Shown piece after piece: positions 51,953 through 55,854 of a stretch of 64,000 bases of DNA (positions are counted from its first letter, which is position 1; each line of letters opens with the position of its first letter). Under the pieces are notes generated by a model that was given only the letters and a program-made list of their open reading frames with translations, had not been told where the DNA came from and ran no database searches. The stretch is from Opitutia bacterium (GTDB lineage: Bacteria; Verrucomicrobiota; Verrucomicrobiia; Opitutales; Opitutaceae): contig JACPIS010000037.1 of assembly GCA_016187925.1 (NCBI GenBank), forward strand, positions 1 through 64,000, in the 5' to 3' direction. The position numbers and the translations under genes were made by a program.

Positions 51953-52018
51953 GGCGAACGTCACAGATGAGCCATGGCAGGGCGCCGCCCTGCCATTGGC
52001 TCTGGCGATTTGTTAGCC
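51953..52018 (-). other. attC site b1
   Basis: R'' GGCTAAC (52012-52018), spacer AAATCGC, L'' CAGAGCCA, a perfect TGGCAGGGC/GCCCTGCCA-type stem, L' TGGCTCATCTGTG and R' GTTCGCC (51953-51959). The 66-bp length and order R''-L''-L'-R' are those of a compact attC. The TAA stop of the upstream cassette gene lies inside R''. Confidence 0.88.
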
Positions 52019-52600
52019 CTTCTTTGCATTTCGGATCGGTCGCTTCACAAGTGGTGGATAGGGTAAGTCGGGAGGCGACATCGTGATCGAATCCAAGTTC
52101 ACGCCGGCGGAACCATAGTCGAGGTATGGGAGGAAATACTGGCGTAGATCGTGGAGATGCTGCTGAACAAACCACCCCTGCAGGGACGGCACGTCGGTAA
52201 GAACAGTGCTGCCTTGAAAGTAACCGACGATTCCACCTACGACTGGACCATCTTCACATGGGAGATCTTCCAAGATGCCTCGAATTGCCAGGGCGTTCGC
52301 AATGACCTCTCGGTGATACTTTCGAATCTCGGGTCCAAAAAGAAACTCGAACTTCTCTGTCTCCTGCTCGAACTTCTTCAGAGCAGGCTCGCTATAGCGA
52401 TCATGGAGTGCGCAGTGCTCAACAAAGTCTTTGAACGCCAAGTAAACTGCGTATCGCTGATCAAAGAGCTTAATTCGAAGATCTGATCTCTGGTTGTGAA
52501 TCTGCGCGCGCGCAATGCGCCAACCGAAGAACCAAGCGCCCGCGCCGAGGAAGAGCTGAATGGCCGACGTAACGATCAACTTCTTGGTCTCGATATCCAT
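52013..52600 (-). CDS. Hypothetical membrane-anchored protein, cassette-borne
   Basis: A 195-residue protein with one N-terminal membrane segment (LIVTSAIQLFLGAGAWFFGWRIA, residues ~8-30) and a charged helical remainder (NQRSDLRIKLFDQRYAVYLAFKDF...). No named family; proteins with this outline are frequent in mobile cassettes. Its ATG is 7 nt after the R' core GTTAGCC of site b2, and its TAA stop is part of the R'' of site b1. Confidence 0.8.
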   Translation of the reverse strand: MDIETKKLIVTSAIQLFLGAGAWFFGWRIARAQIHNQRSDLRIKLFDQRYAVYLAFKDFVEHCALHDRYSEPALKKFEQETEKFEFLFGPEIRKYHREVIANALAIRGILEDLPCEDGPVVGGIVGYFQGSTVLTDVPSLQGWFVQQHLHDLRQYFLPYLDYGSAGVNLDSITMSPPDLPYPPLVKRPIRNAKKG

Positions 52601-52607
52601 CTGCTTT

Positions 52608-52742
52608 GGCTAACGCTTCAGATCAGCCACGCCCGCCGGGCGGGCGAGCCGTCTCTTTTGAATAACTGGGTCATGTCGAGCGGAGATATCATCAGCGAAT
52701 CAGGTGAGAGCAAGGGCGTTGGTCTGTGGCTGCTGGATCGGC
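52608..52742 (-). other. attC site b2
   Basis: R' GTTAGCC (52608-52614) preceded by L' GTGGCTGATCTGAAGC; the R'' is diverged (GCCGATC, 52736-52742), with L'' AGCAGCCAC. The 135-bp site is a close relative of a5 and a6 in array 1. Confidence 0.85.
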
Positions 52743-52743
52743 C

Positions 52744-53343
52744 TCAATTTATGGTCACGATGTCGCCTATCTCATCAATGCCGTCGTGCGCAGCGTCACG
52801 GACGAAGAATGGCGCGACCTCGGATAAGACATAAAGTCCGGTCGGAAGCTTCGTGATGAAGGACAGCAACCTTCCCTCAAGAACGTCCGTCTCGGTATCG
52901 AGCTTCGTGAGCAGCGATGCAATCAGAGCCTGCACTTCGGGCAGCTTCTTTCTTCCGAATGGTAGCAGCCGAGCCGGGACCCAGTAGTGCTGGGAATCGC
53001 GCTGCTTCAGCAAACGAATCTGATGGCACACCTTTCCGGCTGCTGGATCGCCAAGATCTCCGTCGAGATGTGCATGAGCCTTGTCGCGCGCCTCAATCAG
53101 GAGGCGATGCAGGGACAAATTCTCGGCGGGAACAAAGCTCTCCTCGAGCATCGACATGCCACGCGAGCGCTTAAATGGGCGTGCGTAGTGGGTGACCAGC
53201 GAGGTAATGCCGGAAAGAAATGCCATGCTCGTTTCCGGGCTAATCTGCGACAACTGCGTGCAGTCGTGGTCGGCAAACTTCAGGGCATCGGTCGCATAGC
53301 CGAGTGAAATGAACCGCTGCACGTCTTGTTTGGTGGGATTCAT
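52744..53343 (-). CDS. Hypothetical protein, cassette-borne
   Basis: A 199-residue soluble protein (MNPTKQDVQRFISLGYATDALK...). The pattern ETSMAFLSGITSLVTHYARPFKRSRG followed by RDKAHAHLDGD is reminiscent of cassette-borne or HEPN-like helical proteins, but I cannot assign it. The ATG lies 8 nt after the R' of site b3. Confidence 0.75.
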   Translation of the reverse strand: MNPTKQDVQRFISLGYATDALKFADHDCTQLSQISPETSMAFLSGITSLVTHYARPFKRSRGMSMLEESFVPAENLSLHRLLIEARDKAHAHLDGDLGDPAAGKVCHQIRLLKQRDSQHYWVPARLLPFGRKKLPEVQALIASLLTKLDTETDVLEGRLLSFITKLPTGLYVLSEVAPFFVRDAAHDGIDEIGDIVTIN

Positions 53344-53351
53344 CTTCTTCC

Positions 53352-53418
53352 GCCGATCGTCATCAGTCAGACACGGAGGGGCGAAGCCCCGGAGTTGTCT
53401 GTGATGATCTGGTTAGCC
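53352..53418 (-). other. attC site b3
   Basis: R'' GGCTAAC (53412-53418) directly follows the upstream stop; a stem GGGGC-TTC-GCCCC with flanking AGACAAC / GTGTCT arms follows, then R' GATCGGC (53352-53358), two bases from GTTRRRY. The 67-bp site closely matches b5 in layout (ATCACAGACAAC ... GTGTCTGACTG). Confidence 0.82.
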
Positions 53419-53419
53419 C

Positions 53420-53869
53420 TTATTTCCATAGTCCAACTGAACTGACGCAAATCTCGCCCTGCTCACGCAACACCACAAACTGAATTTTGGCCTTCTTTCC
53501 GGCGGCCGACATAAAATCCTGCTTATAAGCCCAACCGGTAGTGCCCTTACGGTCGTCGACGTAATGCACTCGTCCGCTGTTCAGCATCCGGGGGAAGAGT
53601 TGAATCGCTGGGATGGTATCGGCTAGATAGAGCTGCCGCAGCTTCTCAATTCCGGTCTGCTGGATCGTCACCTTGCTGGTGAGCGAAATCATTCCTTCTG
53701 CATCACCGGCGATAGCAAAGGCGACGAATCTCCGCATGACCGGCTCGAACTTCGCAGGATCATCGCGCTCCAACATTTGGATCATCCTGTCCATGTCTCG
53801 AGGGCCAGCCGCGCAACCACATGCGATAATCGCAACGGTCGCACACACGAGTTGTGCAAGAATCTTCAT
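53420..53869 (-). CDS. Putative lipoprotein, cassette-borne
   Basis: A 149-residue protein with a lipoprotein signal (MKILAQLVCATVAIIACGC; Cys near residue 17) and a mature part with two alpha-beta stretches (MIQMLERDDPAKFEPVMRRF; TGIEKLRQLYLADTIPAI). No family is recognised. I chose the ATG at 53869, 8 nt after R' of site b4; a longer open frame runs back into the attC palindrome. Confidence 0.75.
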   Translation of the reverse strand: MKILAQLVCATVAIIACGCAAGPRDMDRMIQMLERDDPAKFEPVMRRFVAFAIAGDAEGMISLTSKVTIQQTGIEKLRQLYLADTIPAIQLFPRMLNSGRVHYVDDRKGTTGWAYKQDFMSAAGKKAKIQFVVLREQGEICVSSVGLWK

Positions 53870-53877
53870 CTCTCTTC

Positions 53878-53968
53878 GGCTAACGTTACAGATGAGCCAC
53901 GACCCTGCTTGGCACCAAAGGCTGCTCCGCAGCCGACGTGCCAAGCAGGGTCGTTGGCTCTAGCGACT
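53878..53968 (-). other. attC site b4, 3' part (split by the IS element)
   Basis: R' GTTAGCC (53878-53884), L' GTGGCTCATCTGTAAC, a long stem (ACGACCCTGCTTGGCAC against its inverse) and L'' TAGAGCCA are present. The R'' that should lie 7 nt beyond is instead at 55333-55339 (GCCCAAC, perfect RYYYAAC), on the far side of the inserted element. Confidence 0.88.
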
Positions 53969-53983
53969 TCCATGAGAAGGCGT

Positions 53984-54228
53984 GTCGAGGGTAATGTTTA
54001 AAATGGTTCACCATTTTGCTGGTCGGTGCCGTTGGCCCTCGGCGGTTCCGGATGGTCAGGCTTCCATACGCACTCGGTGGGTGGGCGTCAATGCCCGGGC
54101 GGTGCAGGGAGGAGTCCGTGAAACCGGAGAGGGGCTGGCCCTGCCTACTGGTTATCGCATTGATTGCTCATGCTGGCGCCAGATCGCAGTAGCCAAAGGA
54201 CGGAACCTGGGTGGGAAATATTCGGGAA
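53984..54228 (-). ncRNA. Candidate bridge RNA region of the IS element
   Basis: The 245 nt downstream of the transposase stop are non-coding and end near a perfect AAAATGGT-TC-ACCATTTT hairpin (54000-54017). In IS1111-type elements the bridge RNA is encoded downstream of the recombinase. The minus-strand 10-mer AACCAGTAGG (54144-54153) is identical to the junction of attC R'' with the transposase-proximal IS end (55326-55335), as a guide segment would be. The RNA ends and fold are not defined. Confidence 0.45.
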
Positions 54229-55287
54229 TCAGGCGGCTTGGAGGAGGGGTTGATACTCGGCCCCGCTTTTCCAGAGGGCGAGGAGCGTGACGGCGAGCTT
54301 GCGGGCGACGGCGATGACGGCGCGTTTCTTGGCGGACTTGCCGCCGCGCAAGGCGATGCGCTCGCCGGCCTCACGCAAGTGCGAGGGCGGGCCGAAGGGC
54401 CCGAGGATGTAGTGGGCACAGTTGACCAGCAGGCAGCGCAACTGGCCGTTGCCGGCCTTGGTGATGGGCAGCTGCTTGTCGGTGAGACCCGATTGATCCC
54501 TTCGGGGCACGAGTCCGAGGTAGGCGCCCACGTCGCGGGTGTGCGGGAAGCGCGCCGGCGTCTCGACGGTGAGCACGAAGCACAGGGCGGTCAGCGGGCC
54601 GACGCCGTCGACCTGGCGCAGACGGGCGGTGACGGGATATTGCTCATCAGCCATCTGTTCGAGCCGGACGTCGAGTTGTTTGATCTGGGCGTTGAGCGCA
54701 TCGATGGTCTGCAGCAGCGGCTCGACCAGCGCGGCCGTCGCGGCGTCGGCGCGGGCCCGGAACTGGCGCACGAAGGCGGTGGCCTTGACGCCACGGGGCA
54801 CGACCAGCCCGAGGCTCTTCACGAGAAAACGGACACTGTTCATCTGGTTGACGCGGGAGCGCACGAGGGCCTCGCGGACCTTCAGCTGCACCAAGGCGCG
54901 CTGGGCAGACTCGCTGCGGTGCTGCACCGGGCTGAGCAAGGCGGGATCGGCCCGGCCGAGCCGGGCAAGCATCCGCGCGTCCTCCTCGTCGCTCTTGGTC
55001 GTGCTCTGCGAGATCGCCCGCAGCTTGCGGGCGTTGGCCACGATCACCGCGTGGCCCAGGGCCTGGAGCAGGCGGCTCACCCACGGGCTGTGCGTGCCGG
55101 TCTCCATCACGAAGGTGGCCCCGGGATGCTTCTGCGCGAAGGCCGTCAGGCACTCGCGCGTGTTGGTGATCGCTTCCTCGGCGAGAATCTCGCCGGCGGT
55201 AGAGAGGACGCAGGCGCTGTGCTTGCGGTCCCCGAGGTCGATTCCGATCGTGACGTTGTTCGTGGTCATAAGGCGGAGAGTATCCAC
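54229..55287 (-). CDS. IS110 family transposase (DEDD recombinase)
   Basis: A 352-residue IS110-type transposase. The N-terminal RuvC-like domain has TIGIDLGD (Asp), FVMETGTHS (Glu) and KSDEEDARMLARL (Asp pair); a coiled-coil linker follows; the C-terminal Transposase_20 part has VDGVGPLTALCFVLTV, LGLVPRRDQSG and LPITKAGNGQLR. The GTG at 55287 has GGAAG six bases upstream; an ATG at 55269 is the alternative. The gene is complete, with 44 nt of element sequence before it and about 260 nt after it. Confidence 0.93.
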   Translation of the reverse strand: MDTLRLMTTNNVTIGIDLGDRKHSACVLSTAGEILAEEAITNTRECLTAFAQKHPGATFVMETGTHSPWVSRLLQALGHAVIVANARKLRAISQSTTKSDEEDARMLARLGRADPALLSPVQHRSESAQRALVQLKVREALVRSRVNQMNSVRFLVKSLGLVVPRGVKATAFVRQFRARADAATAALVEPLLQTIDALNAQIKQLDVRLEQMADEQYPVTARLRQVDGVGPLTALCFVLTVETPARFPHTRDVGAYLGLVPRRDQSGLTDKQLPITKAGNGQLRCLLVNCAHYILGPFGPPSHLREAGERIALRGGKSAKKRAVIAVARKLAVTLLALWKSGAEYQPLLQAA

Positions 55288-55332
55288 CTCACACTTCCGT
55301 GCGAGGCGCTCTACGCCTTCTCATTCCTACTG

Positions 55333-55346
55333 GTTGGGCGTTTTCT
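55333..55346 (-). other. attC site b4, R'' part
   Basis: GCCCAAC (minus strand, 55333-55339) lies 7 nt after the stop of the upstream cassette gene and directly before the IS boundary. It is the missing R'' of the site at 53878-53968. Confidence 0.85.
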
Positions 55347-55772
55347 TCATGCGATAAGAGAGGCACGGTAATTTTCTTTGTGGGTCAAACGAGTGCAGTC
55401 TTTCTGTGGACAGAAAAATCGGTCCGACTTCTCCTGCAAAAGCGACTCGATGCCTCGATTCAAACAGGAAGGACAATAATGTAGTCCCGTCTTCTTATGT
55501 CTCCACACACCAACTTGCGGTATGAATTCCAAGTCCCTCTTCAATCGCCTGATTCCCGAGCGGCTCCAAATAAAGTAACCAACCAAAACCAGATTTAGCG
55601 CGAGGGACAGCAAAAGAGCCGACGCGAGCGACTCCTTCTTGATTGCCGGAAAGACCGATGTCACGACCGCTGCCCATGCGTCTCGGCCGATGAATGCCAG
55701 TAAGATGCCCAAGCCCGAAAGCAGAACCGTCAGCGCGCTTCGAGTCAGCTCTTCTTTAATCAACTTTAGCAT
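55347..55772 (-). CDS. Membrane protein with C-terminal zinc-ribbon-like motif, cassette-borne
   Basis: A 141-residue protein from ATG 55772: two hydrophobic segments (SALTVLLSGLGILLAFIG; ALLLSLALNLVLVGYFIW), then a soluble tail with HYCPSCLN and FFCPQKDC, a C-x2-C / C-x4-C-like metal site. An in-frame ATG at 55793 would add 7 residues but lies inside the attC R' core of site b5. Similar membrane plus zinc-ribbon proteins are common, uncharacterised cassette cargo. Confidence 0.75.
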   Translation of the reverse strand: MLKLIKEELTRSALTVLLSGLGILLAFIGRDAWAAVVTSVFPAIKKESLASALLLSLALNLVLVGYFIWSRSGIRRLKRDLEFIPQVGVWRHKKTGLHYCPSCLNRGIESLLQEKSDRFFCPQKDCTRLTHKENYRASLIA

Positions 55773-55787
55773 ACGGCGGATTTTTTT

Positions 55788-55854
55788 GCCCATCGTCAGC
55801 AGTCAGACACGACGGGGCGCAGCCCCGTCGTTGTCTGTGATGCTCTGGATGGGC
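55788..55854 (-). other. attC site b5
   Basis: R'' GCCCATC (55848-55854) and R' GATGGGC (55788-55794) are perfect inverses. Between them an ACGACGGGGC / GCCCCGTCGT stem with a TGC-type loop and the same ATCACAGACAAC / GTGTCTGACTG arms as b3. The R' deviates from GTTRRRY in having GAT for GTT. Confidence 0.82.

Follow-up and report, generated by a model that had tools for sequence, protein, structure and literature searches.

Does the non-coding DNA behind the transposase gene of an insertion sequence (IS) from an Opitutia bacterium encode the RNA that directs the element to its target? The question is raised by a stretch of 64,000 nucleotides (nt) of contig JACPIS010000037.1 (positions 1 to 64,000, hereafter the window), in which an earlier note had proposed a candidate bridge RNA containing a 10-nt copy of the junction between the IS and an integron attC site. 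This proposal is supported by a covariance-model match and by guide/target covariation across 22 elements. It is highly probable that the minus strand of 54039-54218 gives a two-loop bridge RNA (seekRNA) of an IS1111-type element, which would guide the recombinase to attC.

The 10-mer CCTACTGGTT (minus strand AACCAGTAGG) is an exact copy, as had been claimed, and the window contains it at two places only, 54144-54153 and 55326-55335. A shared word of at least 10 nt with the 28-nt junction was reached in 113 of 20,000 shuffles of the non-coding stretch (~0.6%), so the repeat alone is suggestive, and it is the relatives of the element that make the case decisive. Related transposases were collected from genome contigs and from family, class and phylum samples, and complete elements were excised by their ends, which were assigned by the conserved subterminal inverted repeat (sTIR) and core pattern, so that divergent members would be missed; the right extension GGA formed part of the search pattern. 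All complete elements kept have the core AG at both ends and GGA as right extension, while their left ends vary (AG-TA, AG-AT, AG-TT, AG-GT). Viral contigs held a single distant relative. Covariation of the guides was assessed in 22 distinct related elements, mostly from Verrucomicrobiota, and in a thinned subset of 13, by comparing each RNA with the flanks of its own and of other elements in 50,000 shuffles.

The left guide agrees with the left flank of its own element in 90 of 126 comparisons (shuffled mean 48.8), and the two bases after the core agree with the own IS left end in 42 of 44 (shuffled mean 21.5; 22/22 at +1 and 20/22 at +2); neither count was reached in any shuffle. Because the per-position match holds at -1 to -4, +1 and +2 and fails at +3 (6/22), the 10-mer is parsed as the left target guide AACC, the core AG, a UA (TA in DNA) that copies the IS left end, and an unconserved GG, the last G of which opens the outer stem. 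The suggestion that the 10-mer pairs with the R'' side of attC therefore holds for AACC-AG, which follows the target, but not for TA, which reads the IS end, nor for the GG. Since the left guide has the sense of the transposase strand, it would pair with the opposite DNA strand. Were the 10-mer a coincidental repeat, or a remnant of a duplicated IS end with no role as guide, this would be in keeping with the modest improbability of the shared word and with its two unconserved last bases. However, the same position of the RNA copies other junctions in other elements (AACA-AG-AT in L007, GGAT-AG-AT in L009, CCGC-AG-AT in L055, TTCC-AG-GT in L077), and the covariation refutes such a repeat unless the ends of the relatives are misassigned throughout, which makes this explanation very improbable.

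The second half of the target is read by a partner guide (54176-54184), which gives 127 matches to the complement of the own right flank (shuffled mean 83.8; 0/50,000). This guide and the donor-reading loop (54061-54115) were both missed in the earlier note, and both covary; the donor guide matches the complement of the own left end in 119 of 154 comparisons (shuffled mean 78.4; 0/50,000). Comparison of loop segments with the attC target and the IS ends, which the note had named as a check, shows target guides and donor guide each covarying with their own flanks or ends. As in seekRNAs, the top-strand guide lies 5' of the bottom-strand guide (54176-54184, then 54148-54153), and both match the target. 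All four signals persist in the thinned set, where the handshake bases were equalled in 128 of 50,000 shuffles. The copied motif might instead be a donor guide that reads the IS end, given that six of its ten bases also occur in the IS left end (AG-TAGG), but the four bases ahead of the core agree with the target flank in relatives (17-19 of 21 elements at each position), and a distinct donor loop covaries with the left end, so there is little reason to credit this assignment. The closely related elements L084 and L091 have the same left-end sequence and the same RNA frame but differ in both their left and right guides and, correspondingly, in their targets; as read from their sequences, they are a case of natural retargeting (reprogramming). 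The bridge RNA of L048 has its right-guide half in tandem duplicate with differing guide letters, which is perhaps a step of retargeting.

According to the consensus structure from an alignment of 14 RNAs, the target loop consists of an outer stem, an apical stem, and an internal loop between them that holds the copied motif, with the guides unpaired. Across 17 pairs, 98.2% of cells are paired, and 23 cells have changes on both sides, compared with 5.9 in shuffles; the covariation score of the stems is 0.287, against 0.093 when shuffled and at most 0.059 when slid. The stems of the target loop covary, whereas the donor stem is invariant across relatives and hence neutral for covariation. Placement of 54144-54153 in a plain stem by covariation had been named as the observation that would count against a bridge RNA; instead, the motif lies in the internal loop and covaries with the left target flank. 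The minimum-energy fold of the window copy does pair CUGG with CCAG, which could make the motif part of an ordinary stem, as in a transcription terminator or another structured RNA, with this pairing as its real state. Many relatives do not keep this helix intact (55% of cells paired, against 98% for the flanking stems), so that such a stem is hardly credible. CUGG/CCAG was also tried as a conserved stem of the consensus and rejected, its covariation being no higher than in slid controls. At the gathering thresholds of Rfam, only a tRNA was found in the window. The anatomy of the bridge RNA, the ends of the element, and the covariation of structure and guides are all directly visible in the sequences compared.

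The element that carries this RNA is of the IS1111 type. Its transposase contains PF01548 and PF02371 together with the motif GL-P----SG (GLVPRRDQSG), which places it in the IS1111 family of the IS110 superfamily; the acidic residues and the QSG serine are kept in the alignment with relatives, and a PDB search matched the protein to the solved IS621 and ISCro4 transposases. The sole sizeable non-coding part lies downstream of the gene, as the note had stated and as is typical of IS1111 (~260 nt from 54228 to the right end at 53967, compared with ~44 nt upstream). In minus-strand reading, the element begins with a core AG at 55331-55330 and ends with another at 53968-53967. In IS1111 elements, the right extension is 3 nt long. 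The left extension is 7 nt long (PMC11187229), and the window element has the sTIR ATGAGAAGGCGT on both sides with AGTAGGA on the left and GGA on the right. This layout of sTIR, extensions and core AG is repeated in all complete relatives. In the relative L011, the right and left ends joined in a circle would form TTGACT-17-TAAAAT, a good promoter, which is weaker in the window copy.

The site that was split by this element is an attC. When the flanks are rejoined, GCCCAACC-AG-TCGCTAGAGCCAACGACC... forms the fold of an empty attC with one extra base in L'' (rejoined sequence GCCCAACCAGTCGCTAGAGCC). Judged by sequence, the left guide, the core and the right guide add up to a description of the standard attC site in Opitutaceae integrons. 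The pattern derived from the guides, AACCAGNYGYYAGAG, is intact in 67 of 252 family genomes, but total counts prove nothing alone, because they are close to those of the reversed control; only same-strand clustering and attC hairpins set the pattern sites apart. Forty-five sites have a neighbour no more than 5 kb away, in every case on the same strand. Of the 35 inspected sites, many are attC that show GAGCCAAC together with a bulged hairpin; 16 passed a strict hairpin test, compared with 8% of random positions. The empty-site sequence of the window itself, AACCAGTCGCTAGAG, is intact in several relatives, while the strict guide pattern has no intact site in the genome of the window. Besides the window element, L005, L007, L021, L022, L023, L054 and L057 are inserted after R'' of attC-like sites. 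Elsewhere in the clade the targets differ; for example, five copies of the element, in L049 and its genome, lie in a CAACAAG-RCCGCGG palindrome.

Table 1. Features of the insertion sequence, its putative bridge RNA and the split attC site (positions in the window).
Feature	Position	Strand	Sequence or evidence
IS1111-type insertion sequence	53967..55331	-	1365 bp, left core AG to right core AG; ends from sTIR, 7-nt/3-nt extensions and common core AG
Transposase/recombinase	54229..55287	-	352 aa; DEDD_Tnp_IS110 and Transposase_20 (Pfam); conserved acidic residues, QSG serine
Left sTIR	55313..55324	-	ATGAGAAGGCGT; sequence, conserved in relatives
Left 7-nt extension	55325-55331	-	AG-TAGGA; sequence
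Right sTIR	53972..53983	-	ACGCCTTCTCAT; sequence, conserved in relatives
Right 3-nt extension	53969-53971	-	GGA; sequence, then core AG
Putative bridge RNA (seekRNA) region	54039..54218	-	Covariance model R1, 151.8 bits; the window copy is one of the sequences from which R1 was built
Outer stem of target loop	5' arm 54186..54195, 3' arm 54136-54144	-	5' arm UGGCU-A-CUGC; 4/9 pairs changed on both sides, 98.2% of cells paired
Apical stem of target loop	54157..54173	-	GCAU/AUGC; 2/4 pairs changed on both sides
Right target guide	54176..54184	-	AUCUGGCGC; pairs with right target TCGCTAGA
Left target guide	54150..54153	-	AACC; agrees with own left flank at -1 to -4 in 18, 19, 17 and 19 of 21 elements
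Core in guide	54148..54149	-	AG; this core stands at both ends in every complete element kept
Handshake-like dinucleotide	54146..54147	-	UA; copies IS left end (AG-TA), not right side of target
Right donor guide	54109..54115	-	ACUCCUC; complementary to IS left end TAGGAAT
Left donor guide	54061..54067	-	AUGGA-AG; same as IS right end ATGGA-AG, conserved in all elements together with right end
attC R'' site	55333..55339	-	GCCCAAC, then C (55332) and core AG (55330-55331); such sites occur intact in Opitutaceae
Rest of split attC	53878..53968	-	Core AG, TCGCTAGAGCCAACGACC..., bulged hairpin L''/L', R' GTTAGCC

The split attC lies in a cassette array (51969-55853, minus strand), with further attC-like sites at ~55853-55797, ~53410-53342 and 52002-51969. 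No gene of the genome exceeds the cut-off for an integron integrase, and the array is therefore perhaps without its integrase. The same genome has other traces of this kind of IS. At C46:59477-59656 (L095), a full bridge RNA (132.8 bits) with the same AACCAGTAGG accompanies an orphan right end, next to AG-CGCCAGAGCC, an attC-like flank; no full transposase was detected at this locus. Left-end fragments follow CCCAACC on contig C12 (L002) and CTGACC on C29 (L003), and the latter copy ends with its contig and may be complete in the cell.

On these data, the proposed mechanism would run as follows. After transcription and binding by the recombinase, the target loop would read the attC target with its left guide, core and right guide, while the second loop would read the two ends of the IS as they meet in the circular donor. 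The recombinase would then join target and donor at the AG core, placing the IS just after R'' of attC. After strand exchange, the UA would probably pair with the left end of the element itself, like the handshake guides of IS621. In IS621, two bases beside the right target guide form pairs with the donor DNA once the top strands have been exchanged (PMC11208158), and IS1111 has its two target guides in reversed order (PMC11187229), which is why the handshake bases would be attached to the left guide. By the counts, the two core-adjacent bases match non-cognate and not cognate DNA, as in IS621. The simplest reading would be the same handshake with opposite strand polarity. That in this clade the left target guide of IS1111-type RNAs bears the handshake guide, so that the bottom strand would be exchanged first in an IS621 mechanism of opposite polarity, is proposed tentatively, at slightly less than even chances. 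The bases after the core match the integrated junction, and they might thus serve to recognise the integrated left junction at excision rather than to pair in a handshake. We consider this rather unlikely: their number equals the length of the IS621 handshake guides (PMC11208158), and they avoid the cognate target (6/42 matches), as a model of a pre-exchange lock predicts. Neither observation is decisive against it; the two roles are compatible, and both can be true.

Several points weigh against the proposed bridge RNA or its handshake. The transcript from 54039-54218 is presumed from sequence. Shuffles overstate independence because the relatives share ancestry, although the thinned set still keeps the signal. 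In the window copy, the right target guide has one mismatch and one G-T wobble to the right target, and the right donor guide matches in 5/7 bases only. A mirror handshake in the donor loop is matched at the second base in 12/16 (0.011), while the first base is mostly mismatched and the target match is weak. Finally, the guides of IS5075 were found, and the bases after its left guide, read by eye, show no copy of the IS end.

For IS110 and IS1111 elements, among them the attC-targeting ISKpn4 and ISPst6, bridge RNAs or seekRNAs have already been published (PMC11187229, PMC11208160). ISKpn4, ISPst6 and ISPa25 are seekRNA elements of the IS1111 family that aim at attC (PMC11187229, which cites Tetu and Holmes 2008 and Post and Hall 2009 for the IS1111-attC group). 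By description, the window element resembles them in its DEDD transposase, its downstream non-coding part with a guide RNA, its sTIR, its top-strand guide before the bottom-strand guide, and its insertion near one end of attC. It differs in its host (Verrucomicrobiota/Opitutaceae), and the donor loop and handshake bases of window-type elements are here supported by covariation. No plasmid-borne transposase among the matches listed exceeds 36% identity to that of the window. Like IS621 of the IS110 group, the element has two loops, four guides and a core dinucleotide (PMC11208160, PMC11208158), and handshake bases beside the core that match the opposite DNA (PMC11208158). Unlike IS621, it has a reversed guide order, its RNA downstream (upstream in IS621), the core AG (CT in IS621), a long sTIR, and handshake bases that adjoin the left target guide. 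IS4321/IS5075, IS1111-family elements of Tn21-type terminal repeats, share the sTIR, the extensions and a right guide (AAAACGGAAA) before the left guide (TATTTTC), and have a different target.

The kind of bridge RNA is thus already known, while the lineage and the base-by-base evidence look new, and the handshake segment on the left guide, which fits the reversed guide order of IS1111, is possibly a new point. A literature search with little coverage of subscription journals and preprints returned no handshake guides in IS1111 and no such elements in Verrucomicrobiota, and so carries little weight. The analysis provides a statistically tested map, drawn from sequence, of the target, core, handshake and donor guides of an IS1111-type RNA that is not among the published examples and comes from a lineage aiming at the integron cassettes of Verrucomicrobiota, and the natural retargeting between L084 and L091 supports programmability. 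The reversed handshake bears on whether IS1111 and IS110 have the same order of strand exchange, and the reversed polarity, if true, would explain the reversed guide order in IS1111.
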